In this document: positions 6,173 through 63,570 of the stretch, in pieces | Layout: each line of letters begins with the position of its first letter | How positions within the stretch are numbered: the stretch's first letter is position 1 | Assembly: GCA_009720755.1 (NCBI GenBank) | Contig: WNKV01000003.1 | Location: 310,001-374,000, forward strand | Direction of reading: 5' to 3' | Length of the DNA: 64,000 nt | DNA from: Rhodoplanes serenus | GTDB lineage: Bacteria; Pseudomonadota; Alphaproteobacteria; Rhizobiales; Xanthobacteraceae | Notes under the pieces: model-generated | Databases searched by the model: none | What the model was told of the DNA's origin: nothing | What the model saw: only the letters and a program-made list of their open reading frames with translations | Program-made: the position numbers and the translations under genes

Positions 6173-9100
6173 TCAGGATGCGCGGGCGCTGCGCCGTCCA
6201 CCCCGGCCGCGGCGAACAGGGGCCGAACGTGCCGCGGCCGGGGCGGTGGGCGGGGCGGCGTCGTCGCTCGCTGCCAGGGCGCCCGACGATCGCGCCTCCG
6301 CCCGCGGGGGTTCGCCATTCTGGTGTTCGGCGGCGGGCCGCGTGGCACCGCCGATGCCGCCGTCTCCGTCGGTACCGCTCCCGACGACCGTGCCGTTGGT
6401 GCTGCCGTTGGCGCCGCCGTGGCCGAACGGTGCGCCGTTGCCGGCACCCTCGGCGGCGGGTCCGGGCAGCCGATCGGCCGGCAGCACCCGCTCGGGCGGG
6501 AACCGCATGGTCACCGTGGTGCCCTTGCCGGGCATGCTGTCGATGACGAGGTCACCGTTCAGCGCCTTCATCAGCGCCATGCTGACCGGCAGGCCGAGGC
6601 CGCTGCCCTCCTTCTCGCCGTGGCGCACGAAGCCGGAGACCGCCGGCTCCCCGCCGATCCGCGCGATGGTCTTGGGCTCGATGCCGATGCCGTGGTCCGC
6701 CACCTCGATCACGACACCGCCGCTCGCGGGCGTGCGCACCGTGACCCGCACCTTGCCGCCGGGATGCGAGAACTTGACCGCGTTGGACAGCAGGTTGAGC
6801 AGCACCTGGCGGACCCGCAGCTCGTCGGCATGCAGGCACACCGGCCCGGCCTCGAACTCGAACACCACCACGACGCCGGCCTTGGCGGCCATCGGGCCGA
6901 CGAAGCTGACGGCTCCCGACACCAGCCGCACCAGGTCGAGCGGGCCTTCGTGCAGGCGCAGCACGCCGGCCTCGACCTTGGCGATGTCGAACACGTCGTT
7001 GATCAGCCCCAGCAGGTGGACACCCGAGCTGTGGATGTCCTGCACGTAGGAGAGATAGCGCTCGTGCGGCAGCCGGCCGTGGATCTCGGCCAGGATGGCG
7101 TCCGAGAAGCCGACGATGGCGTTGAGCGGCGTGCGCAGCTCATGGCTCATGCGGGTCAGGAAGTCGGTCTTGGCGCGGTTCGCCTGCTCGGCCGCCTTCT
7201 TGGCGCCGGCGAGTGATTCGCGCGCCTCGTGCAGCTCGGTCACCTCGCGCAGCGAGGCCGCCCGATAGGTGTCGGTCCCCAGCGCGAAGCGGCTCAGCAC
7301 GGTGTCGAAGTGGCTGGTCCGGCCGTGGCGGGTGAGGGCGATCTCGAACCGCGTCGGCCGCTCGTCTCCCGGCGCGCCGCGCAGATGGTCGACCAGCGGC
7401 CCGACATTGGCGTCGTCGACCAGGAACAGGCCGGCCGCCGGACGGCCCACGACGCTGCCCTCCGGCACCCCAAGCAACGTGCAGGCGGCCGAGTTGCAGA
7501 CATGCACCAGGCCCTCGCGATCGGCGATGACAATGCCGTCGGTCGATGTCTCGATCAGGATGCGGGCGCGCCGGCCCTGCTCGTCGGCGACGCGCTGCGC
7601 GGTGCGCAGATCGGTGATGTCCGACAGCGTCAGGATGGCGCCGCCGATCCGCCGGTCGATCCGGTGGGCCGACACCTGCATCAGGTACAGCCGGTCGTGG
7701 ATCTGGAGCTCCTCGGCGTGGGTCGATCCCGAGGCAAGCACCGCCTCGATGGCGGGTCCCACCTCGGCGATGCCGATCTGGCTGGTGACGTCGAGCAAAT
7801 GAGGGCGGCCGATGTCGTGGCCGAGACGCAGGATGCGAGCCGCCTTCTGGTTGGCGCGAATGATGTGGAAGGTCGGGTCGATCAGCACGATCGCCTCGGC
7901 CGAGCTGGCCATGATGCCTTCCAGCTCGCTGTTCGCCTCGGCGAGATCGCCGGTCTTCACCGACAACTCGTCGTTGACGGTGGTCAGCTCCTCGTTGGTC
8001 GCCTGAAGCTCCTCGTTGGCGGTCTCCAGCTCCTCGTTGGAGGCCTGCAGCTCCTCGTTGGACGCCTGGAGCTCCTCGTTGGTCGATTGCAGCTCCTCGT
8101 TCGAGGTCTCCAGCTCCTCGACGACGGTCTGCAAGTTCTCCTTGGTGGCCTTCAGCTCCTGCTCGAGCGCGGCGATCTGCTGGCTGCTGGCCTCGTCCGC
8201 ATCGCTCGCCGTGGTGGCGGCGAGGGGGGTCACCGGCTCGCACTCCTCGAAGCACACGAGAAAGAGCCGCTCGTCCGCCCGCGCCCGGTCGACCGCGTGG
8301 ACCGAGACGCGCACGCCGCGCCCGCCCTGCGGATCGGCGTGCACCTGGCCACGATGCGAGCCCTGGTCGCGCTGGCAGCGGTGCAGCAGCACGCGCAGCT
8401 CGCTGCGCAGCGACGGGTCGACGATGTTGGCGAGGTTGAGATCGACCTTGCCGCTGCCGCGGCCGAGGTGAACGAAGCGGCTGACGTCGCCGTAGAAGTG
8501 CAGCGGCTCGCCGTCGTTCGACACCAGGATGCTGGGCGGGCCGAAGCGCTCGACCAGAAGGTCGCGGCCGACGCGGCCGAGATCCTCCTCGGGCGGTTCG
8601 GCCGGGCGGCGCACCGGGGCGCCGAGATCCGGGGTGGTCGGCAGGATGCCCTCGGCCTTGGGCACGTAGTAGGGGCGGATCGAGATGTTGCGGCGGCGGA
8701 ACAGCTTGTGGCGGGCGTCCACCGCCGTGAACAGAGCCTTGCAGTTGCCGAGCGATTCCGACTTGCCGAGGAACAGGTGGCCGCCGGGCCGCAGGGCGTA
8801 GTGGAACAGCTTGAAGATGTGGTCCTGCAACGCCGGCTTGAAGTAGATCAACAGGTTGCGGCAGCTGATCAGGTCCATGTTCTTGAACGGCGGGTCCTGC
8901 ACCACGTCGTGGCGCGAGAACACCACCATGTCGCGGACCGTCTTGTCGATGCGGAACAGCCGGCCGTTGCTGGAGAAGTGGTTTTGCAGCGTGGCGCTGC
9001 CGAGGCTGACGAGGCTGCTCTCGGCATATTCGCCGCGGCGGGCGTGGTTGGTCGCGGCGGCGTCGATGTCGGTGCCGAAGATCTGCACCCGCAGGGCGCC

Positions 9101-10153
9101 GAGGCGGGTCTGCGCCTTGCCGGCGAGCAGCAGGGCGATGGAGTAGGCTTCCTCGCCGGTGGCGCAGCCCGGCACCCAGATGCGCAGCGAATCCCCGGTC
9201 CGCTTCTCCTTGATGATCTTGTCGAGCGCCTTGTTGAGCGCCGCGAACGCCTCCTTGTCGCGGAAGAACGACGTCACCGAGATGAGGAAGTTCTTGGCGA
9301 GGACGCCGACCTCGTCGCGGTTGTGCTCGATGTAGCCGATGTAGTCCTTGAGGGTGCCGATCTGCAACGCCGACATTCGGCGGGCGATCTGGCGGCGCAG
9401 CGTCGCCTCCTTGTACTTGCTGAAGTCGATGCCGGTCTGGTTGCGGATCACCCGGATGATGGTCTGGTAGGTGCCACCGACATCGGACTTCTCGACGAGG
9501 CCGAGATGCAGGTCGTGTCCCTGCGCGATGGTGGCGAGCTTGCCGGCGATCTCCTTGGGCGGCAGCACGAGGTCGGCGCCTCCCACTGTGATGGCGGCGC
9601 GCGGCATGCTCTCGTACTTGGCGGAGTCGGGCTCCTGGGCGAAGGTGATGCCGCCATGCGCCTTCACGGCGCGCAGGCCGTTGGCGCCGTCCGAGCCGGT
9701 GCCGGACAGCACGATGGCGATCGCCCGGCTGCCGAGCCCGGCCGCCAGGCTGGTGAAGAAGTGGTCGATGGACGGCTTCGGCCCGATGGTCTCCATCGGG
9801 GTGCGCAGCACCAGCTTGCCGCCGCGATAGAACACGTCGCTGTTGGGCGGCGCGATATAGATGGTGTTGGGCTTGACGGTGACACCGTTGTTGATGGCGA
9901 CCACCGGGATGCGGGTCTCGCGCGCCAGCAGCTCCACCATCATGCTGCGATGCTGCGGCGAGAGGTGCTGCACCACCACGAAGCACAGGTTGGACGAGCT
10001 TTGCAGGGCGGCGACGAACGGCCGCAACGCCTCCAGGCCACCCGCCGAGGCGCCGATCCCGACCACATAGAGATCGCGGAGGCGGCTCGCCTCGCCGGAC
10101 TTGACGTCCCCCGGCCCGCGGGCGGCGCGAGGTGACGGTGCGCGTCGGCTCAT
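6173..10153 (-). CDS. CheB–CheR–PAS–histidine kinase hybrid
   Basis: A cytosolic signalling protein of 1326 residues with no membrane span. Positions here count from the chosen ATG. CheB methylesterase (about 27-210) has the triad Ser36 (GASAGG), His63 (QHLSP), Asp155 (GTGSDG). CheR methyltransferase (about 230-490) has GCATGEEAYSIA as SAM-binding loop and ISCRNLLIYF. A heptad coiled coil of (S/T/A)NEELQ repeats covers about 660-730, followed by two PAS domains (about 740-850, 860-980). HisKA has His1004 (MSHELRTPLNAIVGFSD); HATPase_c has NLLSNAVKFS, DHGIGIEP and GSGLGLPV. The last ~100 residues are Gly/Asn/Ala-rich and unstructured. There is no receiver domain, so the partner regulator is elsewhere. 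I start at 10153 because GGGAG lies 7 bases upstream; starts at 10159 and 10171 are in frame. Confidence 0.92.
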   Translation of the reverse strand: MSRRAPSPRAARGPGDVKSGEASRLRDLYVVGIGASAGGLEALRPFVAALQSSSNLCFVVVQHLSPQHRSMMVELLARETRIPVVAINNGVTVKPNTIYIAPPNSDVFYRGGKLVLRTPMETIGPKPSIDHFFTSLAAGLGSRAIAIVLSGTGSDGANGLRAVKAHGGITFAQEPDSAKYESMPRAAITVGGADLVLPPKEIAGKLATIAQGHDLHLGLVEKSDVGGTYQTIIRVIRNQTGIDFSKYKEATLRRQIARRMSALQIGTLKDYIGYIEHNRDEVGVLAKNFLISVTSFFRDKEAFAALNKALDKIIKEKRTGDSLRIWVPGCATGEEAYSIALLLAGKAQTRLGALRVQIFGTDIDAAATNHARRGEYAESSLVSLGSATLQNHFSSNGRLFRIDKTVRDMVVFSRHDVVQDPPFKNMDLISCRNLLIYFKPALQDHIFKLFHYALRPGGHLFLGKSESLGNCKALFTAVDARHKLFRRRNISIRPYYVPKAEGILPTTPDLGAPVRRPAEPPEEDLGRVGRDLLVERFGPPSILVSNDGEPLHFYGDVSRFVHLGRGSGKVDLNLANIVDPSLRSELRVLLHRCQRDQGSHRGQVHADPQGGRGVRVSVHAVDRARADERLFLVCFEECEPVTPLAATTASDADEASSQQIAALEQELKATKENLQTVVEELETSNEELQSTNEELQASNEELQASNEELETANEELQATNEELTTVNDELSVKTGDLAEANSELEGIMASSAEAIVLIDPTFHIIRANQKAARILRLGHDIGRPHLLDVTSQIGIAEVGPAIEAVLASGSTHAEELQIHDRLYLMQVSAHRIDRRIGGAILTLSDITDLRTAQRVADEQGRRARILIETSTDGIVIADREGLVHVCNSAACTLLGVPEGSVVGRPAAGLFLVDDANVGPLVDHLRGAPGDERPTRFEIALTRHGRTSHFDTVLSRFALGTDTYRAASLREVTELHEARESLAGAKKAAEQANRAKTDFLTRMSHELRTPLNAIVGFSDAILAEIHGRLPHERYLSYVQDIHSSGVHLLGLINDVFDIAKVEAGVLRLHEGPLDLVRLVSGAVSFVGPMAAKAGVVVVFEFEAGPVCLHADELRVRQVLLNLLSNAVKFSHPGGKVRVTVRTPASGGVVIEVADHGIGIEPKTIARIGGEPAVSGFVRHGEKEGSGLGLPVSMALMKALNGDLVIDSMPGKGTTVTMRFPPERVLPADRLPGPAAEGAGNGAPFGHGGANGSTNGTVVGSGTDGDGGIGGATRPAAEHQNGEPPRAEARSSGALAASDDAAPPTAPAAARSAPVRRGRGGRRSARAS

Positions 10154-10533
10154 GGTCATGCTCCCGATCATCGGGGTGCACGCAAATGACCTCGCCGCCG
10201 AAGCGACGCGGGTACGCCTACTAGAACAGTTTGTAATGGGCTAAAAGATACCGTTCGACGCACGCCTCGTCTTACGTACGTCTGCGTATCTTAGTAGCAC
10301 TGCGGAGAATACTCGCGCGTCACGGTCGATACCGCTGGTAAGTTGTCCACTCTTTCTCCGCAATCAGTGGCAGCGTCTCGGCACGATTAGCCGTAATCCT
10401 AGTCGAAGCTTATAGGAGAGGGGCGACGTCCCGGACATCTCCGCGGTAACGTCCCCGCGTCATGCTGGCGAATCTCCGAATCACGTCTCGGCGATGCGCG
10501 GCGATCGGCGAAGCAGGGTGGCCGAATTCTGGA
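10154..10533. other. AT-richer intergenic region, probable kinase promoter
   Basis: About 380 bp between the kinase and the end of the LOG gene, both on the minus strand. It is clearly less GC-rich than its surroundings (for example 10220-10330), as expected of a promoter and upstream region. No GGAAC-N16/17-CGTT stress promoter and no clear sigma-70 pair was found. No gene is seen. Confidence 0.5.
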
Positions 10534-40573: not shown

Positions 40574-41167
40574 CTACTGCTTCGCCAGCGCGTCGAGAGC
40601 GGCCGCGAAGCCCTTGAAGGACAACGGCACCGCCACGTCGCGCTGGATCGCGTCCTTGTACTCGATGCGGCCCGGATCGGTGCGGGCGCGCAGCCGGCGG
40701 AGCACGTCGTCGCCGAGCTCGGCGTCGGCGAAGCAGCCGGCCGGCATGCAGCGCTTGTAGCCGAGGGCGAGCGGCGGCTGCTTGTCGTCGAGGACGAGGC
40801 GCGGGGCGGCGGCGAGCCAAACGTTCACCGGCATCTGCACCACGAGGCGCAGCGGGTCGGCCTTGGCGGCCCGCCCGATGGCGACCTGCCAGGTCGGGAC
40901 GGCCTGGCCCTGGAGCTGCTGAGTCTGGAAGATCTCGCAGATTTTCTGCGACGTGGCGGGCGGCGTCGCCGGCGGGGTCTCGCAGCGCACCGTCCAGTCG
41001 TCGTAGGTGGCGGTGGTGCGGGTCGGCGACTGGCCGGCCGCCGGGCCGGCAGCCAGCATCGCGAGGGCGGCGACGAGCGTGACGGCCGCCAGGGAGCGGC
41101 CGCGCCGGGCCGGCGGTTTCGAGAGCAGGCGCGACAGGAACAGGCGCGACAGGGACGAGCGCGACAT
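40574..41167 (-). CDS. Invasion-associated locus B (IalB) family protein
   Basis: A 197-residue periplasmic protein. A basic N-terminus and hydrophobic core (SLAAVTLVAALAMLAAGPAA, cut near AAGQ) form a signal peptide. The IalB fold follows: TTATYDDWTVRCETPP, KICEIFQTQQLQGQAVPTWQ, LRLVVQMPVNVWLAAAPRLV and GYKRCMPAGCFADAELGDD with paired cysteines. IalB proteins are periplasmic factors of unclear mechanism, first noted in Bartonella host-cell invasion. The gene starts 17 bp after tpsB, so it belongs to the secretion operon. GAGG lies about ten bases before the ATG. Confidence 0.85.
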   Translation of the reverse strand: MSRSSLSRLFLSRLLSKPPARRGRSLAAVTLVAALAMLAAGPAAGQSPTRTTATYDDWTVRCETPPATPPATSQKICEIFQTQQLQGQAVPTWQVAIGRAAKADPLRLVVQMPVNVWLAAAPRLVLDDKQPPLALGYKRCMPAGCFADAELGDDVLRRLRARTDPGRIEYKDAIQRDVAVPLSFKGFAAALDALAKQ

Positions 41168-41184: not shown

Positions 41185-42957
41185 TCAGTAGGTGGCGGTC
41201 ACCCGGGCATGGATGCGCCAGGTGCCGGCGGGTGTCTGCGGCCCGTCGAGCAGGGCGTAGCCGGCCGCCAGGTTGGCGCGCCACAGCGTGCCGATCTGGG
41301 CGTCGAGGCCACCGCCCACCGAGGCGAGCGTGGTGTCGCGGTCGAGGAAGACGTCGCGGCCCCAGCCGACGTCGCTGAACACATAGGGCACGACCTTGGC
41401 TTGCAGCCAGGGCGCCGTCTTGTCCACCGCCAAGGCGGGGAGGTACAGGGTGTTGCGCGAGATCACCGCCTGGTCGACGGTGCGGTCCTCGGTCATGTAG
41501 CCGCGCACCTGGAAGGCGCCGCCGAGCGAGATGCGCTCGGTGTCGGGCAGCGGCTGGCCGGCGATCAGGGCGAACACCTCGTTGCCGAGGACGAAGCCCT
41601 TCGGCAGCGGGGTCGTGCGCACATAGGCGAGCGTCGCATAGGCGTAGTGGACATTGTCGACGCGGCCGTTGGTGTAGAGGCTCCAGGCCGCGGGGGCGTT
41701 GTCGGGCAGCATGCCGCCTGGGTTGTACTTCACCCGCACGTCGAGATCGTTGACGCCGAAACGGTCGGTGAAGCGGCCGGCGAAGCCGCCGACGACCTGG
41801 AACAGGTCGACGCCGAAGTCCGCCACCTCCGTATCGACGAAGAACAGCGCGCGCTCCTGGTGCTTCGCCTCGACGCCGAGCAGCAGGTCGCCGAACGCCC
41901 ACGGCAGCAGGTCGCCGAGGGCGCTGCGATGCAGGGCCGAGAACTCCGTCGTGCGGGTGCGATAGCGCAGCCAGAGGTTCGGGTGCTCGTTGGTCTGGAT
42001 GGCGTTGCCGATCAGCTCCAGGCTGGCGCGCGGCCACAGCGGCACGATCACCCGGCCCGCATGGCTCTGGTAGAGGGCCAGGTCGGGGTTGTTGATCGGG
42101 TGGCCGTCGTCGATCCAGTAGTCGCGGCTGCCGGTCGCCTGATAGGAGGCCAGCACCTCGCCGGGCAGCACCATGGACGTGCCCGCGAACCAGCGGTCGC
42201 GGCTGGTGAGCAGGGTGCCGGTGTTGGCGTAGCCGGTGTAGACCTGCCAGGGCCGCAGCTCGGTGGTGCGCAACGTCAGGTCGGCTTCGGCGAGGTCGCG
42301 GCCGGGGCCGAACACCGCCTCGACCCGGCGGAACGGGTTGCGGTTGAGCCAGTCCAGATCGGTTTCGAGCCGGCGCGCGTCGATCGGCTCGCCGGGCGTC
42401 ACCCGCACCCGGGTGCGCACATGGTCGGTGCCGGTGCGGGCCGCGCCGGCGACCGTCACCCGCCCGGTACGATACTCGATCACGCGCACCTGGAGGGCGC
42501 CGCCGGTGATCTCCTGGGGCGGGATGGTGACCGACACGAAGGGCCGGCCGGCGTCCTTGTAGGCGCCGGTGATGGCGGCCTGGATGTCGGCGATCAGCTT
42601 GCGGCTGAGCGGCCGGCCGACGAACGGGGCGAGGCGTCCGCGCAGCGCCGCCGGGTCGGTGCTGGCGACGCGGCTGTCGTCGATGCCGGAGGAGCGCGCC
42701 TGCGCGGCCGGCTGGTCCTTCGGGCCGAGCAGTATGATCCCGCGCAGCGTCGCGCCGAGCGGCGTGTCGTCCTCGCCCTTCAGGAGGTCCGGCGTGATGA
42801 AGCCGACCGGCGGCGCGCCGCTGCGGGCGGGGGCGGGCGGCAGGTTGCGCTCCACCACCTGGGCGGCGGTCGGGCCGCCCCCCATCAGGGCGGCCACAGC
42901 CGTGGCGACGACGGCGCACGCGAGCCGGCGCGTGTGCGCCGGCATTGGTCCGGGCAT
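41185..42957 (-). CDS. Two-partner secretion outer-membrane pore (TpsB, ShlB/FhaC family)
   Basis: A 590-residue outer-membrane transporter. A signal peptide (about 1-32, …GGGPTAAQ) is followed by a Pro-rich linker, then POTRA-type domains (about 80-215: PFVGRPLSRKLIADIQAAIT, VSVTIPPQEITGGALQVRVI, PIDARRLETDLDWLNRNPFR with the TpsB-typical L-N-R-N-P-F-R) and a 16-strand barrel. The barrel contains VYTGYANTGTLLTSRDRW and the conserved VRGY (FQVRGYMTEDR) and GLDAQIG motifs. It ends in Tyr (RVTATY), as outer-membrane barrels do. It lies directly downstream of the exported partner at 43095-47945 (137 bp gap), which is its obvious cargo. Confidence 0.92.
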   Translation of the reverse strand: MPGPMPAHTRRLACAVVATAVAALMGGGPTAAQVVERNLPPAPARSGAPPVGFITPDLLKGEDDTPLGATLRGIILLGPKDQPAAQARSSGIDDSRVASTDPAALRGRLAPFVGRPLSRKLIADIQAAITGAYKDAGRPFVSVTIPPQEITGGALQVRVIEYRTGRVTVAGAARTGTDHVRTRVRVTPGEPIDARRLETDLDWLNRNPFRRVEAVFGPGRDLAEADLTLRTTELRPWQVYTGYANTGTLLTSRDRWFAGTSMVLPGEVLASYQATGSRDYWIDDGHPINNPDLALYQSHAGRVIVPLWPRASLELIGNAIQTNEHPNLWLRYRTRTTEFSALHRSALGDLLPWAFGDLLLGVEAKHQERALFFVDTEVADFGVDLFQVVGGFAGRFTDRFGVNDLDVRVKYNPGGMLPDNAPAAWSLYTNGRVDNVHYAYATLAYVRTTPLPKGFVLGNEVFALIAGQPLPDTERISLGGAFQVRGYMTEDRTVDQAVISRNTLYLPALAVDKTAPWLQAKVVPYVFSDVGWGRDVFLDRDTTLASVGGGLDAQIGTLWRANLAAGYALLDGPQTPAGTWRIHARVTATY

Positions 42958-43094
42958 CGCCCCGCTGGTCCGCTCCGTACTCCGTCCACGCCCGTCCACG
43001 ACCCTGTCCTACGCCCCGTCCGTCCTACGCCTCGTCGTCTCGTTTCGGCCCGGCTCTCCGGCCGGTGCTCGTCTCATCTCGTCGGTCGCCGCCG

Positions 43095-46000
43095 CTAGCG
43101 CAGCGGCTGTGCCGGCACCACGCCCGGCCGCGGCGGCGCCGCCGCCGGCGCCACCGGCGAGGCCGTCGCCGGGGCGATCCCGGCGAGCGAGCGGATCGGG
43201 TCCACCAGCCCGGCGCCAGTCTGGAGATCCTTGCCGGGACCGAGGGGCTTGGCGGTCCGTGTCAGAATGGCGCGGATATCCGCCGGTGTCAGGCTCGGCC
43301 GGGCCTCCAGCAGCAGGGCGACGACGCCGCTCACATGGGCGGCCGCCACCGAGGTGCCGGTGGTGAGCTGATAGGCCCCGTTGGGTGAGGGCACCAGCAC
43401 GTCGACGCCGGGCGCCGCCACGGCGATGTGCTTGCCGCGGTTGGCCTGGGCGAACGGCCGGTCGTCGTTGTCGGTGGCCGAGACGGCGATCACGTTGGGG
43501 TCGGCGGCCGGGAACAGCGGCGGCGACTTCGCCCCGGCATTGCCGGCCGCGGCGATCAGCACGATGCCCTGGCGGTACGCTTCGTCGAGGATGCGTTCGG
43601 TCATCAGGTCGCGCGGGCCGGCGAAGCTCATGTTGATGATGCGCGGCCGGCGCGCCATCACCCAGTCGAGCCCTTTCAGCACCTGGGTGGTGGTGGCCTC
43701 GGCGCTGGGCGCCTTCTCGGAGAACGCCCGCACCGCCAGGAGGCGGGCGCCGGGGGCGACGCCGAGGAGGCGGAAGCGCGACGCGATGGCGCCCGCCATG
43801 CCGGTGCCGTGGGTGTGCGGCCGCGGCGCGTCGCCGGTCGCGTCGAAGCGGTCGACGATCACCCCTTGCAGGTCGGGATGGCGGGCGTCGATCTCGGAGT
43901 CGATCACCGCGACCGTGACGTTGGCGCCGCGCACCCGCTGATGGACGGTGCCGAGCTGGAGCTTCTGAATGACGTACTGGGCCGGGTCGCCGGCCGGCAG
44001 TGTGGTGCGGGCGGCGAGGTCGCTGGCCAGATCGCTGGCGCCCGCCGCGGCGGGCTCCGGTGCATCCGCGCCGGGCGCCCGAGGCGCCACGGGCGGCGCT
44101 GCGGTGTCGGGGGCCGCGGCGTCGGGCGCGAGCTGGGCGACCTGCCGGCCGACGTCCCGGGCGGGTCCGCGGGCGAGCCCGAAGGTGTAGTTGGGCTGCG
44201 CCGAGGAGACGATGCGGTTCTGCTCCAGGGTGAGGATCAGCGCCCGGATGTCCTGGCCGGCGCCCATGCGGAAGCGGTAGACGACCCGATTGGTCAGGGC
44301 GATCGGCTCGGCCGAGAGGATCTCGACCCCGAGCCGGCGAGCGATCGCCTCCACCTCGGCGCGCGACACCCGGGCCGGAATCTGGAGCACGATCTCGTCC
44401 GGCACGAAGCGAGTCTCGCCGAGCGGCGGCACGCCGCTGAACTGCTGCTCGCTGGGCGAGCGGTCGAGGCCCGGTCCCGGCGGTGGGCCGGCGCCCGGAT
44501 TGCCGGCGGCTCCGCCCGCGCCGCCGCGGCCGCCCTGGCCGCCACGCCCGCCGGAGCCGGTGCCGTCGCCCGAGGGGGGCGGCGTGATGTTGCTCTGGTT
44601 GGGGTCGGGCGGGCCGAAGCCGCCGAGGCCGGTCGGCGTCAGCGACACCAGGGTGACCAGCGGGCCGGGATCGTAGAACGACGGCACCCGGATCGGCGGC
44701 CCGAACAGGAACGGATAGGTTTGTCCCGGCAAGGTGTTCCAGACGCCCGGATCGAAGCCCGGCGGCAGGCCGCCGGCGAGCTGGAAGGTGGTCAGGCCGA
44801 CGCCGCCGGCGCTGGTGGTGCGGCCGGACGTCATCGTGTCCCAGTACGACGACTGGACGACACCCGGGCCGCCCAGGAAGGTCTGGTCCGGCGCCAGGGT
44901 GTTGACCCCGATCAGGCCGCCGGCTGTGCCGCCGGCCCCGGTGGTGACCCGGCCGATCGCATAGGTCTCGCGCACGAGGCCCGAATTGGTGCCGACCAGG
45001 CCGCCCGCCACGCCGGTGCCGGTGCCGGTCACGGCGCCGGTCGCGTAGGACTGGATGATCTCGGCCGGCGGCCCGTAGGCGGTCGTCGCGTTGAGGCCGG
45101 CGAGGCCACCGAGGCGGGTGCCGCCGTCGCCCGTGACCGCGCCGGTCGCGAACGAGCGGGCGATCGTCCCGGTGTTGGTGCCGACGAGTCCGCCGCCGGT
45201 GCCACCGGGGCCCGCCGTCGTCACCGCGCCGGTCGCGCTCACCTCCTCGACCAGGCCGTCGTTGCGGCCGACCGCTCCGCCGACCGCGCTGCCGGCGCCG
45301 CCGGTCACGGCACCGACCGCGATGGACTCGAACAGCGTCCCGCGGTTGCGGCCGACCAATCCGCCGACCTCCGCGCCGGCCCCGCCGGTGACGTCGCCGG
45401 TCGCCACCGAATAGCGGATCTCGCCGCCGGGTCCGAAATAGCCGGTGTTGTTCTCGCCGACGAGGCCGCCGACCGCCGCCAGAGGTCCGGCGGTGACCGA
45501 TCCGGTCGCCACGCTGAACTCGATGAGGCCGGCGTTGCGGCCGACCAGGCCGCCATAGGTTCCGTAGCTGGTGGTCGGCCCGGCGATGATGTCGCCATGC
45601 GCCGACGAGCCGGAGATGAGGCCCTGGTTGTCGCCGGCGAGCCCCCCGACGGTGTGTTCGCCGAGGCTCGTGATGGCGACGTCGGCGGTCGAGCCGACGA
45701 TGGTGCCCTCGTTGCGGCCGACCAGCCCGCCCGCCCACACGCCGTTGCCGGTGCCGATCAGCATGGTGCCGGCGACATGGACGTTCTCGATCCGCCCCTC
45801 GTTGATGCCGGCCAGCAGGCCGACCGAGCTTTCCGCCCATTGACCCTCGACATGGCCGGTGAGCATCAGGTTGCGGACCACGGCGCCCGGGCCGATCACG
45901 TCGAACAGGCCGCGCGACGGATTGGGGCTGGCGACGCCGAGATGCGAGATGGTGTGGACGATCTTCGAGCCGTCCGCCCGGACGAGGCCGCCATGGCCGT

Positions 46001-47945
46001 CCAGGATGCCGTCGAAATGGCCGTCAATGCCGGCGAAGCCGGTGGCGTCGATGTCGCGGCCGAGCGCATAGGCGCCGCCGAGATTGTCGCCGATGCGGCC
46101 GAGGTCGGCGGCGCTGTTCACCAGCATGTAGGCGGCGAGGCGGGCGTTGGCCCCGGTCGCCACGGCGGCCGTGTAGTCGGTCGGCGACGTGTAGCTGTAC
46201 GGGTTGTAGTAGATCGACACCGAGCCGGTGCTGCCGGAGAAGTCGATCGCCGGGCCGTAGTAGTTGTAGCTGTTGAACAGGACGGTGCCGACGCCGGTCC
46301 CGGTGTTGTCGGCGCGCAGGATCAGATGACCGGACCCGGTATTGACGATCTGGGCGTCGGGCACGAACGTGTAGGCCGATCCGAACACGATGTTCCGGTA
46401 GGCGCTCAGCGTCAGCGTCGCGCCGGTGTTCCAGGCGATGGTGACGCCTGGCAGGATGGTGATGTCGCCCTGGCCGCCGGTGCCGGAGGCCGTCGTCTCC
46501 TGGGTCACGTTGGTGCCGGCGTTCAGGCTCGCCGAGATGATGCCGGCGAGCGTCGTGTCGATGACGAGGTCGTCGGGATCGAGCAGCCAGGTGCCGCCGC
46601 GGCCAGCGTCGACGCGGCCGCCGGTGATCACGAGGTCGCGGCCCGATGTCTCGACGAAGCCGCCGCCACCCGGCCCCTTGGCGCTGACGGTGCCGGCGAA
46701 CGACGTGGTGCCGTCCGACCACACCACCACCTTGCCGCCGGCGCCGCTGCTGCCGTCCGCCCGGATCTCGGCGCCGGACTCGACCGTCACCCGCTCGGCG
46801 TTGCGGATCGGCCGGTCGAACAGCGCGCCGCCGGGCGCCCGGCCGCCGCCCCGATCGCCGCCGACCAGCACCAGGCCGCCCGTCGTGCCGCTCGCCGTCA
46901 GGAGGGCGCCGGACTTCACCGTGACGTCGCGCCCCGTGACCACGATGCGGCCGCCGGCGCCGTCGATCCCGGCGGCATCGAGCACGCCGCCGATCGTCAC
47001 CGCGTCGGCCTCGATCAGGATGTCGCCGCCGGCCGTGACGGTCTTGGCCGCGCCGCCTTTGCGGCCCCGCCGATCGGGCTCGGCCGGGGCGGTCGCTTGG
47101 CGCCGCGCCTCCAGGCGCTGGGTCGCCACCACGCTGCCGCCCTCGGCGGTGAGGAAGATGCGGCCGCCCTTGCTGGCGACGCCGGTCGCCTTGATGACGC
47201 CGTCGGTGTTGCCGGCCAGTGCCAGCACGTTGCCGCCATTGGCGCGCAGCTCGACGTCGGCGGCCCGGATCGAGCCGCGGTTGACCACCTGGCCGTTGCC
47301 GCCCGGCAGCTTGACCTGCACCTTGCCGTTGCCGAGGGCGCCGTCGCTCAGCACCACCTCGCGGCCGGACGCCATCGCGGCGGTGCCTTCCGGGGCCGTG
47401 ATGCTGCCGTCGTTCTGCACCGTGCGGGCGATCAGCACGACGTCGCCCTTGGCGGAGCCGATCCGCCCGAGATTGACGACCGCGGCCGTGCTGGCGCCGT
47501 CGAACGTCATGCTGCGGCCGGCCAGGAAGGCGGCGTCCTTCACGTCGAGGGTCGAGGCGACGAAGCTGCCGCCAGTCTGCACGATGCCGGTCTGGCCGAC
47601 CGCGATGCCGGCCTGGTTGACCAGGAAGACGCTGCCGGTCGCCGTCAGGGTGCCGTTGATGGTCGACGGGACGTTGCCGGTGACCCGGTTGAGGGTAGCG
47701 CCGCTGCCGTTGTCGAAATGGACGGTGTTGCCGGTGCCGATCGAGAAGGTCGACCAGGAGATGATGCCGGCCGGTCCGCCCTGGGTGACCAGCAGGCTTC
47801 CGGGCGAGGGCTGGGAGATACCGATCGCGCCGTGGGTCGGCGTTCCGCCGGTGGGCAGCGGCTGCGCCAGCGCGGCCCACGGCACACCGCTCGCGGCGGC
47901 GCCGAGCGCGACCGTCACTGCGAGGCGGGCCAGCCTTCGGGTCAT
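43095..47945 (-). CDS. TpsA-type exoprotein fused to a subtilisin (TPS domain–GLUG repeats–S8 peptidase)
   Basis: A 1616-residue exported protein. Signal peptide at 1-28 (…WAALAQ). The TPS secretion domain (about 30-160) has GGPAGIISWSTFSIGTGNTV and SVFLVNQAGIAVGQTGIV. A beta-helical region follows to ~650, then about 11 GLUG repeats (roughly 700-1040; GGLVGRNxGxI…SxATGxVT) ending SSYWDTMTSG. A Gly/Pro linker (~1125-1160) leads to a prodomain-like segment (FVPDEIVLQIPARVSRAEVE, ~1178-1260). The C-terminal S8 peptidase has Asp1349 (VIDSEIDARHPDL), His1379 (HTHGTGMAG) and Ser1532 (GTSVAAAHVSG), so the triad is complete. The start at 47945 gives the signal peptide. It is probably secreted through the TpsB encoded downstream and may cleave itself or other surface proteins. 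No frameshift is seen across the fusion. Confidence 0.88.
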   Translation of the reverse strand: MTRRLARLAVTVALGAAASGVPWAALAQPLPTGGTPTHGAIGISQPSPGSLLVTQGGPAGIISWSTFSIGTGNTVHFDNGSGATLNRVTGNVPSTINGTLTATGSVFLVNQAGIAVGQTGIVQTGGSFVASTLDVKDAAFLAGRSMTFDGASTAAVVNLGRIGSAKGDVVLIARTVQNDGSITAPEGTAAMASGREVVLSDGALGNGKVQVKLPGGNGQVVNRGSIRAADVELRANGGNVLALAGNTDGVIKATGVASKGGRIFLTAEGGSVVATQRLEARRQATAPAEPDRRGRKGGAAKTVTAGGDILIEADAVTIGGVLDAAGIDGAGGRIVVTGRDVTVKSGALLTASGTTGGLVLVGGDRGGGRAPGGALFDRPIRNAERVTVESGAEIRADGSSGAGGKVVVWSDGTTSFAGTVSAKGPGGGGFVETSGRDLVITGGRVDAGRGGTWLLDPDDLVIDTTLAGIISASLNAGTNVTQETTASGTGGQGDITILPGVTIAWNTGATLTLSAYRNIVFGSAYTFVPDAQIVNTGSGHLILRADNTGTGVGTVLFNSYNYYGPAIDFSGSTGSVSIYYNPYSYTSPTDYTAAVATGANARLAAYMLVNSAADLGRIGDNLGGAYALGRDIDATGFAGIDGHFDGILDGHGGLVRADGSKIVHTISHLGVASPNPSRGLFDVIGPGAVVRNLMLTGHVEGQWAESSVGLLAGINEGRIENVHVAGTMLIGTGNGVWAGGLVGRNEGTIVGSTADVAITSLGEHTVGGLAGDNQGLISGSSAHGDIIAGPTTSYGTYGGLVGRNAGLIEFSVATGSVTAGPLAAVGGLVGENNTGYFGPGGEIRYSVATGDVTGGAGAEVGGLVGRNRGTLFESIAVGAVTGGAGSAVGGAVGRNDGLVEEVSATGAVTTAGPGGTGGGLVGTNTGTIARSFATGAVTGDGGTRLGGLAGLNATTAYGPPAEIIQSYATGAVTGTGTGVAGGLVGTNSGLVRETYAIGRVTTGAGGTAGGLIGVNTLAPDQTFLGGPGVVQSSYWDTMTSGRTTSAGGVGLTTFQLAGGLPPGFDPGVWNTLPGQTYPFLFGPPIRVPSFYDPGPLVTLVSLTPTGLGGFGPPDPNQSNITPPPSGDGTGSGGRGGQGGRGGAGGAAGNPGAGPPPGPGLDRSPSEQQFSGVPPLGETRFVPDEIVLQIPARVSRAEVEAIARRLGVEILSAEPIALTNRVVYRFRMGAGQDIRALILTLEQNRIVSSAQPNYTFGLARGPARDVGRQVAQLAPDAAAPDTAAPPVAPRAPGADAPEPAAAGASDLASDLAARTTLPAGDPAQYVIQKLQLGTVHQRVRGANVTVAVIDSEIDARHPDLQGVIVDRFDATGDAPRPHTHGTGMAGAIASRFRLLGVAPGARLLAVRAFSEKAPSAEATTTQVLKGLDWVMARRPRIINMSFAGPRDLMTERILDEAYRQGIVLIAAAGNAGAKSPPLFPAADPNVIAVSATDNDDRPFAQANRGKHIAVAAPGVDVLVPSPNGAYQLTTGTSVAAAHVSGVVALLLEARPSLTPADIRAILTRTAKPLGPGKDLQTGAGLVDPIRSLAGIAPATASPVAPAAAPPRPGVVPAQPLR

Positions 47946-48242: not shown

Positions 48243-50531
48243 TCACCGGGCCAGCACCACGTCGCCGATCAGCGAGGAGTGGTCCCACGGGAGCTGGCGC
48301 TGGCGCGTCGTCTGGTAGACGTCGGCCCGCACCCGCTTCATCACCGCCCCGATCTCCAGGCCGGGCGTGGCCATGTGCTTGAGCAAAGCGGCGGTGAACG
48401 GGCTGTTGCGGCCCTCGCCGTCGAGCGCGACGTTCTTGGGCTGGGTGGCGTAGACGATCATGGTGCCGACCGCGCTCTGGATCGGGGCGAGCCCGGTGCC
48501 GACCGAGGTCGAGCGGGTGCCGAGTGCGGCGGCGAGCGACCGCGCCAGCGGGTTGTCCCGGCAAGCGTCGAGGAAGACCAGATTGACCCGGCGCTCGCTC
48601 TCCATCTGGGCGAGCACGTCGTCCACCGTCACGGTGTCGAGGGTCAGGTCGCCCGCCCGCTCCAGCCGGGCGTCGACCGGCACCAGATAGTTCTTGTCGG
48701 CCACCTGGAGGCCATGCCCGGCATAGAAGAACAGGGCGAGGTCGGCGCGGTCGAGCTTGCGGCCGAAGTCGCGAATGCGCGACTCCATCCCGTGCTTGTC
48801 GAGATCGATGCCCTCGACCACGTCGAAGCCGAGGCCGCGCAGCGACCGGGCCATGTCGCGGGCGTCGTTGCCCGGGTTGGGGAGGGTGGTGGCGTAACGG
48901 TAGGCGCCGTTGCCGATCACCAGGGCGACGCGGGTGCCGCGGCCCACCGGCGGCTCGGCGGCCGGCGGCGGTGGTAGCACCGCCGGGCTGGTGGCCGGGG
49001 TGACGGACGGGGTCGGGGTGGCCGCAGGGGCGACCGTCGCGGCCGGCGCCACCGTGGCGGACGGCACCGAGCCGGACGGTGTCGCACCGGATTGGGGCGT
49101 AGCCGGACGGCTTCCGGGGTCGGGGCGCGGCGCACCGGCGTCGATCGCCGCCAGATGGGCGCGGGCGGTGTCGATCGCCCAGGCTCCGCCGAGATAGCTG
49201 CGGCTGGTCGGGGACGCCAGGGCGGCGCGGAAGTCGTCGCGGGCGCGCGAGAGATCGCCGCGCGCCTCGAAGGCGAGGCCGCGGCTTGTGTAGGCTGGCG
49301 CCAGGGTCGAATCGAGGCGCAGGGCCTCGCCGAGATCGACGATGGCGCGGTCGAGTTCACCCTTCAGGCGCCAGGAGGTGCCGCGATTGCTCAGCGCTGC
49401 GGCGAAGCGGGCGTTGAGCCGGATCGCCTCGTCGAGATCGCGGATCGCGCGGTCGTAGTCGCGGCGCTGATTGTGGACGTAGCCGCGCAGATTGAGGGAG
49501 CTGGTGTCGCGCGGGTTGAGCTTCACGGCCTCGTCGAGGTCGGCGAGGGCGCGCTCCCAGTCGCCGCGGGCGATGCCGACCTGGGCGCGGTTCTGCCACG
49601 CGAAGGCATAGCGCGGGTCGATCCGGATCGCCTCGTCGTAGTCGCGCTGCGCCCGGTCGAGGTCGCCGCGGCCCCGATAGGCATTGCCCCGGTAGCTGTA
49701 GTAGGCGGCGACGCGCGGCTCCAGCCGCACCGCCTCGTCGTAATCGCTGATGGCCCGGCCGTGATCGCCCTTGTTGTAATAGGTGTGGCCGCGGTTGATC
49801 AGCGCGGTGACGTAGTTGGGCTGCAACCGCAGCGCCTCGTCGAGGTCGCGCAGAGCGCGGTCGTAATCGTTCTTGTTGCGGTAGGCATTGCCGCGATTGC
49901 TGACATAGACGACGGTCTTGGGCGACAGCCGGATCGCCTCGTCGTAGTCCTGGATGGCGCGGTCGTAGTTGCGTTGGTCGAAGAAGACGTTGCCGCGAGC
50001 GTTGAAATACTCGGCGGCGCCGGGCTTGAGCCGGATCGCCTCGTCGTAGTCGCGGATGGCCTTGTCGTACTCGGCCTTCTTGCGCCAGGCGGCGGCGCGA
50101 TTGCCGTAGGCGATCACGTATTTGGGGTCGAGCCGCAGCGCCTCGTCGTAGTCGCGCAGGGCGCGGTCGGGGTTGCCCTGGGCGCTGAACGCGAAGCCGC
50201 GATTGTTGAACGCCGTGGCGTTGGTCGGATCGTGGCGCAGCGCCTCGTCGAGATCCCGGATCGCCAGCTCGTGCTGACCCTTCTCGTTATAGACATAGGC
50301 GCGGTTGTTGTAGGCGGCCGAGCGGTCGCGTGGCGCCATCTTGCTGCCGCTCCGCTCGATGATGCGGGTGCAGCCGGCGAGGCGGGAATCGAGCTCGCCG
50401 TTACGACAGGCGTTCCAGTCCTTCTGACTCTGGGCGGAGGCCGTGCTTCCGCCGAGAGCGAGCGCCGCGAGAGCGAGTGCGGCGAGGACGAGGGCGGTGA
50501 AGCCGGTAGGAACCACGAGAAGCCGACGCAT
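48243..50531 (-). CDS. Periplasmic TPR–orthocaspase (C14 family)
   Basis: A 762-residue protein. A Sec signal peptide (…ALALGGSTASAQ) is followed by 11 consecutive TPR units (about 70-440; consensus NRGxxYxxxxDYDRAIRDYD), a Pro/Ala/Thr-rich linker (about 455-515), and a caspase-like p20 domain with VALVIGNGAYRYATTLPNPG, catalytic His606 (FFYAGHGLQV) and Cys657 (FLDACRDNP). Orthocaspases cleave after Arg or Lys. The signal peptide places both halves in the periplasm. GGGAGAG precedes the ATG. It lies 297 bp upstream of the TpsA–subtilisin gene on the same strand, which suggests, but does not prove, a shared role in handling exported proteins. Confidence 0.9.
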   Translation of the reverse strand: MRRLLVVPTGFTALVLAALALAALALGGSTASAQSQKDWNACRNGELDSRLAGCTRIIERSGSKMAPRDRSAAYNNRAYVYNEKGQHELAIRDLDEALRHDPTNATAFNNRGFAFSAQGNPDRALRDYDEALRLDPKYVIAYGNRAAAWRKKAEYDKAIRDYDEAIRLKPGAAEYFNARGNVFFDQRNYDRAIQDYDEAIRLSPKTVVYVSNRGNAYRNKNDYDRALRDLDEALRLQPNYVTALINRGHTYYNKGDHGRAISDYDEAVRLEPRVAAYYSYRGNAYRGRGDLDRAQRDYDEAIRIDPRYAFAWQNRAQVGIARGDWERALADLDEAVKLNPRDTSSLNLRGYVHNQRRDYDRAIRDLDEAIRLNARFAAALSNRGTSWRLKGELDRAIVDLGEALRLDSTLAPAYTSRGLAFEARGDLSRARDDFRAALASPTSRSYLGGAWAIDTARAHLAAIDAGAPRPDPGSRPATPQSGATPSGSVPSATVAPAATVAPAATPTPSVTPATSPAVLPPPPAAEPPVGRGTRVALVIGNGAYRYATTLPNPGNDARDMARSLRGLGFDVVEGIDLDKHGMESRIRDFGRKLDRADLALFFYAGHGLQVADKNYLVPVDARLERAGDLTLDTVTVDDVLAQMESERRVNLVFLDACRDNPLARSLAAALGTRSTSVGTGLAPIQSAVGTMIVYATQPKNVALDGEGRNSPFTAALLKHMATPGLEIGAVMKRVRADVYQTTRQRQLPWDHSSLIGDVVLAR

Positions 50532-54589: not shown

Positions 54590-54708
54590 GATTCCGTTCC
54601 TATATTGCGGAATCGACAGCGTCACCGGCGCGGTGACGGAATCGACCGTGCGAGGTGGGTGCACCCGCCGCGCGGTCGATCAGGCGGTCCGGGACCTCCC
54701 GGACCGCC
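54590..54708 (+). promoter_or_regulatory. Three tandem hairpins in the rplL–rpoB spacer
   Basis: Three perfect inverted repeats: GATTCCG…CGGAATC (54590-54614, 7 bp, 11-base loop), CGTCACC-GGCGC-GGTGACG (54620-54638, 7 bp), and GGCGGTCCGGGA-CC-TCCCGGACCGCC (54683-54708, effectively 11 bp with a 4-base loop). None has a T-tract. The spacer in E. coli holds a partial terminator and an RNase III site that set the L12:RpoB ratio; these stems could do the same. Confidence 0.55.
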
Positions 54709-54827
54709 CGGTTCGGGCGGCGACCATGCGAAAGGTTCGCCGCGATGCCGCTTCCGGGCAGCGCCCTCCAGGGCCGCCGGAAGCCCCCCGCCGCCATGTC
54801 GGCCGGCGGAGGAAGCGAGAGGCCACG

Positions 54828-58949
<4,122 letters not shown>

Positions 58950-58960
58950 CGCGACCATGC

Positions 58961-58981
58961 GGGCCGGGCATGTCCCGGCCC
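58961..58981 (+). promoter_or_regulatory. Hairpin in the rpoB–rpoC spacer
   Basis: GGGCCGGG-CATGT-CCCGGCCC is a perfect 8-bp GC stem 11 bases after the rpoB stop. There is no T-tract, so it is more likely an mRNA processing or stability element than a terminator. Confidence 0.45.
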
Positions 58982-59105
58982 TCCCGCCGCGGCCGACGGG
59001 CCGTGGCCGGGATCGCGCCCTCGCGCGACGGGTCGAGGGCGGACTTTTCGATCGACACGGCTGCGGAACCCTCGGCGGTCGAACCCACCAAGTGTGGAGA
59101 CAGCA

Positions 59106-63305
<4,200 letters not shown>

Positions 63306-63373
63306 CGGGCGCGCGTCCGGGCTGCACCATCGCGGCCGGCGACGGCAGCCGCGATGGATGACGACGAAAGCGA

Positions 63374-63399
63374 CGGGCCGCCCGGCGACGGGTGGCCCG
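63374..63399 (+). terminator. Probable terminator of the rpoBC operon
   Basis: CGGGCCGCCCG-GCGA-CGGGTGGCCCG: 11-bp stem with one G·U pair and a GCGA tetraloop, 68 bp after the rpoC stop, followed by CTCGCGTTTCGGTGGTGTTT, which is T-enriched but lacks an unbroken T-run. Confidence 0.6.
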
Positions 63400-63553
63400 C
63401 TCGCGTTTCGGTGGTGTTTCTGCCGCCAGCCGATCCCGACAGTTGTGTGTCCCATAGGTTCGCGGCATCGTCGGGCCGCAGGCCCGGTCGCGCCCCCGCG
63501 CGGGCGGGCATGCGGGTCGCGTGACGGAGACGGGCAGGGCGGCGGACGGGGCA

Positions 63554-63570
63554 ATGCCGCAATGCGGCAT
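63554..63570. promoter_or_regulatory. Palindrome upstream of the GH13 gene
   Basis: ATGCCGC-AAT-GCGGCAT, perfect 7-bp arms, 99 bp before the GH13 start. It could be an operator for a sugar-responsive repressor or just a small hairpin; no regulator gene is in view. Confidence 0.3.

Follow-up and report, generated by a model that had tools for sequence, protein, structure and literature searches.

A two-partner secretion protein of Rhodoplanes serenus with a C-terminal pro-subtilisin as its probable payload

Gene and domain organization of the locus

The analysed stretch of DNA (the window) comprises 64,000 nucleotides of Rhodoplanes serenus, a member of the Xanthobacteraceae (assembly GCA_009720755.1, contig WNKV01000003.1, positions 310,001 to 374,000). 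A single stop-free open reading frame on its reverse strand (43095-47945, ATG at 47945) translates into a protein of 1616 residues, referred to here as TpsA-S8; no stop lies between the GLUG repeats and the peptidase. The frame, Pfam matches and a structural model bear out the original prediction of one continuous chain that joins a two-partner secretion (TPS) domain, a stalk, GLUG repeats, a Gly/Pro linker, a prodomain and an S8 peptidase (Table 1), with matches to all three expected families, Haemagg_act (PF05860), Glug (PF07581) and Peptidase_S8 (PF00082). The PF05860 match in this protein is the only one in the genome. The Glug match (E 1e-17) includes three stretches that each pass alone, and a motif scan counts 11 units, in agreement with the approximately 11 repeats anticipated. 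No Pfam domain exceeds its cut-off in the presumed beta-helix region (residues 269-688). The motif that caps the GLUG stalk was matched in 10 of 21 scanned proteins; similar caps also precede the CHAP payload and two of the lipase-like payloads described below.

Table 1. Features of the TpsA-S8 gene and its neighbours in the window
Feature	Residues	Position in window (strand)	Basis or remark
IalB-domain protein		40574..41167 (-)	Pfam; third gene of cluster, ATG at 41167
TpsB partner (POTRA_2, ShlB)		41185-42999 (-)	Pfam; next gene downstream of tpsA
Peptidase_S8 PF00082	1340-1578	43212..43928 (-)	Pfam E 1e-43; Asp1349, His1379, Asn1469, Ser1532
Disordered linker, prodomain to catalytic domain	1260-1313	44007..44168 (-)	pLDDT <50 in model
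Prodomain, I9/fervidolysin-like fold	1180-1256	44178..44408 (-)	C-terminal end is the conserved QPNY region
Gly/Pro-rich linker		44457..44708 (-)	Read from translation
GLUG stalk end cap, SYWD...GFDP..W....YP	1032-1079	44709..44852 (-)	Motif
GLUG repeats, 11 GLUG-like units	709 (first) to 1009 (last)	44826..45821 (-)	PF07581 and motif scan
Presumed beta-helix stalk, remainder	269-688	45882..47141 (-)	Fold presumed
TPS secretion domain PF05860	27-268	47142..47867 (-)	Pfam E 4e-24, above cut-off
Sec-type signal peptide	1-28	47862..47945 (-)	Read from translation
TPR repeats and caspase (Peptidase_C14) protein		48243..50531 (-)	Pfam; upstream neighbour

A TPS domain directly after the signal peptide and an adjacent tpsB gene fit the TpsA class (type Vb exoproteins), and export of the protein is accordingly predicted from its sequence. 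The start codon of the IalB-domain gene lies 17 bases past the tpsB stop, with no overlap between the two. The Rhodoplanes group is further represented by R. tepidamans DSM 9987 (G001), R. elegans DSM 11907 (G002), 'Rhodovulum' sp. PH10 (G003) and a Rhodoplanes MAG (G004). In all five genomes, TpsB and IalB follow tpsA. The TPR-caspase gene precedes tpsA in four of them and is unlisted beside the G003 gene at E 1e-30, in a comparison that left out weak GLUG and TPR-caspase matches; it is uncertain whether this gene is part of the TpsA-S8 system. A second gene similar to the TPR-caspase neighbour occurs in G004. Both G001 and G004 have this single frame and this gene order. The G002 and G003 copies are split into a TPS part and an S8 part, both of which reach a contig end, so the join cannot be seen there.

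The same genome encodes a paralogous subtilase (L048), which has a lead rich in Pro and Gly and lacks a TPS match. Similarity between the two proteins begins at a GPPPGxG motif in the linker (GPPPGPG in TpsA-S8); the motif thus marks the fusion junction, as this is where likeness to a stand-alone subtilase starts.

Among eight other open reading frames of the window, six lack a Pfam match at E 1e-5, and their frames are possibly wrong. A single protein encoded at 6173-10171 combines CheB, CheR, PAS and histidine kinase domains. The frames at 54600-60998 and 61017-63554 (-), of 2132 and 845 aa and without a Pfam match at E 1e-5, may be genuine genes for unknown proteins or, in this G+C-rich DNA, open frames that are non-coding.

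Protease domain and prodomain

The catalytic domain matches subtilisin BPN' in a PDB search (E 2e-37). The triad is intact at exactly the predicted positions, Asp1349, His1379 and Ser1532, and together with the oxyanion Asn in an S8 fold it places the enzyme in peptidase family S8. All 16 fused or contig-split copies compared retain these four residues; the count leaves out L094 and L126.

The HMM gives a weak match to the prodomain (PF22148, E 0.03, below cut-off), which is identified by its fold. An AlphaFold2 model of residues 1152-1604 (mean pLDDT 82.7, pTM 0.83) contains a high-confidence beta-alpha-beta-beta-alpha-beta prodomain, followed by a disordered stretch and the subtilisin fold. 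Its best solved matches, spanning prodomain and catalytic domain together, are fervidolysin (PDB ID: 1r6v) and unprocessed pro-subtilisin E (PDB ID: 3whi; TM-score 0.84 by target length), which clearly agrees with the proposal that the protease keeps its own prodomain. In agreement with these closest structures, the prodomain of the model packs against the catalytic domain in a largely zymogen-like arrangement. In subtilases, the enzyme itself cuts the prodomain off at the C-terminal end of the latter. Judged from the pro-subtilisin arrangement of the model, the protease likely matures itself, and the disordered linker is likely the region of the predicted self-cleavage; since subtilases cleave at the prodomain end, such a cut would also free the protease from the stalk.

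The two ends of the protein are its most conserved parts. Relative to G001 and G004, dN is 0.09-0.11 for the S8 domain and 0.13 for the TPS domain, against 0.36-0.41 for the fast-evolving helix region (residues 269-700) and 0.43-0.52 for the GLUG repeats; gapped codons were dropped, and dS is modest, so the ratios are indicative only.

Distribution of fused and unfused subtilases

Some part of TpsA-S8 is matched in 64 of 100 genomes (the R. serenus genome and 99 relatives). A count of the architecture across genomes yields, within the samples, 16 distinct one-frame TPS+S8 proteins, all of them within the Xanthobacteraceae: 14 from the fetched candidates (including the R. serenus protein) and two among the named loci (L094 and L126). 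The frame of L037 is open at the 5' contig end, leaving the TPS domain partial, and that of L069 is open at the 3' end. Two further loci (L091 and L092) have GLUG repeats plus S8 and are cut before the TPS part. One-frame TPS fusions also account for 13 of the best 80 among 405 named protease relatives, mostly genes already counted; because the best 80 were taken, this is not a population frequency.

Of 119 genomes sampled evenly across the family, 64 contain the protease, at 93 places (E 1e-100). The frame is longer than 1400 aa at 15 of these places, 14 of which are verified fusions; the fifteenth (G296) matches L092 in length and place. At the remaining 78 places, to which the R. serenus paralogue belongs, the frames have at most 861 aa, some being contig-cut and the halves from G002 and G003 being included. 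The order sample contains the protease in 70 of 199 genomes (E 1e-40), with a longest frame of 817 aa besides the R. serenus fusion, and the class sample in 11 of 289 genomes (E 1e-50), where the longest frame besides that fusion, 774 aa, is the R. serenus paralogue. According to these counts, the enzyme usually occurs unfused, and its fusion to a TPS part is seen, within the samples, only in this family. A widespread fusion was considered and rejected: a search that covered close relatives of this S8 domain in the order and class samples found none in a long frame outside the family.

The same subtilase carries an autotransporter barrel in 8 of the best 80 named loci, two of them recognized by Pfam and six by an HMM built from those two; two of the eight are contig-cut. 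In both Pfam-scanned barrel loci, TIG and Ig-like domains stand in front of the subtilase. This type Va form is represented by L106 (8372-12049), L108 (8744-12037) and the other six loci; the eight come from Bradyrhizobium and others.

Two lineages of TPS domains

The TPS domains of the fused proteins form two lineages, each on long branches and each supported by 100/100 together with non-S8 rows. Type I, the Rhodoplanes lineage, groups with TpsAs of G017, G022, G026 and G055. The protein of G017 (L045) ends in MBG repeats according to Pfam, and those of G055 (L047) and G022 (L082) look similar by eye; L047 and the G026 protein (L046) run into contig ends, and their C-termini lie outside the sequence seen. 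Judged from their sequences, these nearest TPS relatives of type I look like ordinary adhesins. The lineages also differ in gene order. In type I, tpsB is on the 3' side of tpsA in all five genomes, whereas in type II an HMM-detected TpsB lies 5' of the gene in 10 of 11 TPS+S8 loci, the eleventh (L037) being cut there.

When the TPS domains of the fused proteins are constrained to a single clade, the log-likelihood drops by 152 units (p-AU 4e-148). With two non-S8 type II rows admitted to the clade, which were picked once the tree was known, the drop is still 52 units (p-AU 0.001). A single inherited fusion in which the TPS part was kept is rejected by these tests. The S8 tree joins the type I proteases with that of a type II protein (G041) with weak support (88/49), and S8 trees are poorly supported within type II; given this grouping, two separate fusions and one existing fusion that exchanged its TPS end are equally possible. 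On a quick S8 tree of 102 rows, from which duplicates and S8 rows shorter than 230 aa were dropped, seven changes among the unfused, TPS and autotransporter forms are needed.

C-terminal enzymes of the type II lineage

Within the family, a profile of type II TPS domains has matches in 17 of 296 genomes (E 1e-75). In the order, nine of 297 genomes match at E 1e-60, two of them clearly (G163 and G242) and seven with far lower scores; two low-scoring proteins scanned as whole proteins (G507 and G579) carry MBG repeats. The resulting 19 type II members (with G326 equated to L126 and G376 to L094 by frame length and place) end in S8 (13 members), in class-3-lipase-like domains (three) or in a CHAP domain (one), while one lacks an enzyme (G015, which ends after GLUG-like sequence) and one is cut by a contig end (G353). 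A C-terminal hydrolase is thus present in 17 of the 19. The tally of non-S8 payloads covers TpsAs chosen by TPS score, and the different payloads are seen in type II, not in the Rhodoplanes (type I) lineage.

The three lipase-like hydrolases (G106, G163 and G242) possess a GHSLGG motif. Lipase_3 is just above its cut-off in two of them, and G242 is below the cut-off for all payload families; the best PDB match of the lipase-like profile is the T6SS lipase effector 7ubz (E 7e-10). The CHAP payload (G349) matches the peptidoglycan hydrolase PcsB (E 1e-5). When the lipase and CHAP members are aligned with three S8 members, the main segments of TPS domain and stalk share approximately 38-50% identity, and the alignment stops before the payload; that of G242 is limited to the TPS domain and part of the stalk, the first ~490 residues. 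In a tree of 41 TPS domains, the 19 type II members form a clade (support 98/94) within which the payload types are intermingled. In a deeper relative (G632; clade support 99/91), the C-terminal domain is a caspase (E 1e-21). G583 and G817, which are likewise deep relatives, lie on short contigs that end early.

At several named loci, the encoded TPS protein has a CHAP or class-3-lipase-like domain at its C-terminus: L163 (3647-7333), L165 (3789-8186), L166 (3837-7130) and L074 (5789-9916). The G015 gene (L076, 3687-6785), a type II tpsA whose product ends after GLUG-like repeats, has TpsB matches in two separate frames ahead of it, and that genome also has, on a different contig (L021), a related S8 whose frame is broken; L076 is possibly a decaying copy. 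A caspase domain occurs in the TPR-caspase neighbour of the Rhodoplanes gene and as the C-terminal payload of G632.

Comparison with known secretion systems

The nearest known case is LepA/LepB of Pseudomonas aeruginosa, which shares a TpsA protein that is itself a protease. LepA is a trypsin-like (S1) protease, whereas TpsA-S8 has no S1 match in Pfam; its protease is an S8 subtilisin that follows the GLUG repeats and has an I9-like prodomain. In a table of TpsA proteins in PMC5422565, LepA is placed under proteases.

The FhaB/FhaC system of Bordetella with SphB1, the parallel drawn in the original prediction, likewise brings together a TPS protein and a cell-surface subtilisin. SphB1 is described there as a separate autotransporter encoded elsewhere (PMC5422565, PMC6070651), whereas the Rhodoplanes subtilisin sits within the TpsA chain. 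According to PMC5422565, genes for maturation proteases seem to lie outside TPS operons. Subtilase autotransporters of type Va (Ssp, SphB1 and NalP) share with TpsA-S8 a subtilisin payload that takes a type V route, and relatives of the Rhodoplanes S8 domain bear an autotransporter barrel as these do. TpsA-S8, in contrast, has no barrel of its own (no PF03797 match in Pfam, the S8 match ending 16 residues before the C-terminus) and is encoded beside a separate TpsB.

CdiA and other polymorphic toxins with a TPS leader have in common with these proteins a TPS stalk with varied C-terminal enzymes. TpsA-S8 differs in that no PT-VENN or similar pretoxin region is matched in Pfam at E 0.1, nor is HINT matched. 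The next gene in type I is tpsB, and the weak comparison of downstream genes given below detected no immunity partner. Zhang et al. 2012 (PMC3482391) name HINT as the protease that processes the T5SS class and assign subtilisin to others.

Subtilisin-autotransporter architectures are tabulated in PMC2605481; in its text, 'haemagg' and 'GLUG' are absent and 'hemagglut' occurs once, in reference to Cleaved_Adhesin. Among the open-licence matches listed, no title or beginning of an abstract indicates a TPS-subtilisin fusion, and a paper on Rhodoplanes with two-partner secretion was not found in the open-licence literature searched.

Proposed function and alternative explanations

TpsA-S8 is probably a two-partner (type Vb) secreted exoprotease, with the subtilisin as a payload that probably frees itself at the prodomain. 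The TPS domain would direct the protein to the TpsB pore encoded by the adjacent gene, and the helix and GLUG region would form a surface stalk carrying the complete pro-subtilisin at its C-terminal end. The protease would be the last part to cross the outer membrane, and the prodomain would guide its folding outside. A self-cut in the disordered linker would then free an active enzyme of ~30 kDa, with the prodomain staying on the stalk; alternatively, the protease may remain attached to the stalk. Export, its order, the activity and the place of cleavage are what we infer from the domain order, the gene cluster and the model.

The original prediction had left three roles side by side for the attached protease: cutting the adhesin off the surface, maturing itself, or being delivered by the adhesin. 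Its structural premises stand (the fusion in cis, the prodomain and the intact catalytic residues), and a TpsB gene lies next to the fusion. Delivery emerges as the best supported of the three options, because lipase-like and CHAP domains fill the same position in the other TPS lineage and because the subtilase is elsewhere found either with no TPS part or joined to an autotransporter barrel; nothing in the data specifically favours release of the putative adhesin from the surface. These TpsA proteins have a payload slot at the C-terminus, and in this view the most likely role of the Rhodoplanes protein is that of an exoprotease exported by the TPS route.

The foremost alternative is that the subtilisin mainly cuts its own adhesin part and so controls shedding of the stalk, in a role like that of SphB1. 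The protease does lie in cis behind an FHA-type stalk, SphB1 acts in trans in Bordetella according to the descriptions of that system (PMC5422565, PMC6070651), and the prodomain and long linkers could allow it to reach its own chain. This main role is nevertheless unlikely: the enzymes that occupy the slot in the other TPS lineage, lipase-like and CHAP domains, are not expected to mature an adhesin, and most places of the subtilase lack a TPS-sized frame. The plain SphB1 analogy was accordingly considered and rejected; cis-maturation is possible as a side effect, with no support of its own.

Somewhat less probable still is a contact or predation effector, in which the C-terminal enzyme would be a toxin module aimed at other cells, as in CdiA and polymorphic toxins. 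Such a role would agree with the variable C-terminal enzymes on a related TPS stalk, with the T6SS effector as the first PDB match of the lipase-like profile and with the likeness of the CHAP payload to PcsB. It is opposed by the lack of PT-VENN and HINT matches in TpsA-S8 and by the lack of a widely shared gene directly downstream as an immunity candidate. When ORFs of at least 80 aa within 2.5 kb downstream of 18 loci were compared (E 1e-6), two pairs shared any, one by way of the type I tpsB and the other being a type II pair; this test is weak, since immunity genes can be short and can differ between toxins.

An artefact, whether a pseudogene or a false joining of two genes through an error in assembly or frame, has next to no chance of being the explanation and was rejected: several relatives are draft assemblies and contig ends hide the join in G002 and G003, but the single frame and the gene order recur in the independent assemblies G001 and G004, one-frame TPS+S8 proteins number 16 overall, and the active site is retained with low dN at both protein ends.

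The reading of TpsA-S8 as a TPS-exported exoprotease can be extended to the lineages as a whole. The chances seem evenly balanced that a TPS lineage serving generally as a carrier for exchangeable C-terminal hydrolases (subtilisin, class-3-lipase-like, CHAP and the caspase domain of the deeper relative) exists in Alphaproteobacteria, that Rhodoplanes represents a second TPS lineage, which acquired the same subtilisin, and that the enzyme, rather than adhesion, is the business end of the protein, freeing itself by means of its prodomain. The relatives with other enzymes on a similar stalk suggest such an export carrier. A stalk with varied, fully equipped exoenzymes would widen the known cargo of type Vb secretion and would allow enzyme display to be studied in phototrophs, which are not known to be pathogenic. 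It would also lend itself naturally to testing how a compact subtilisin gets through a TpsB pore and becomes active once outside.
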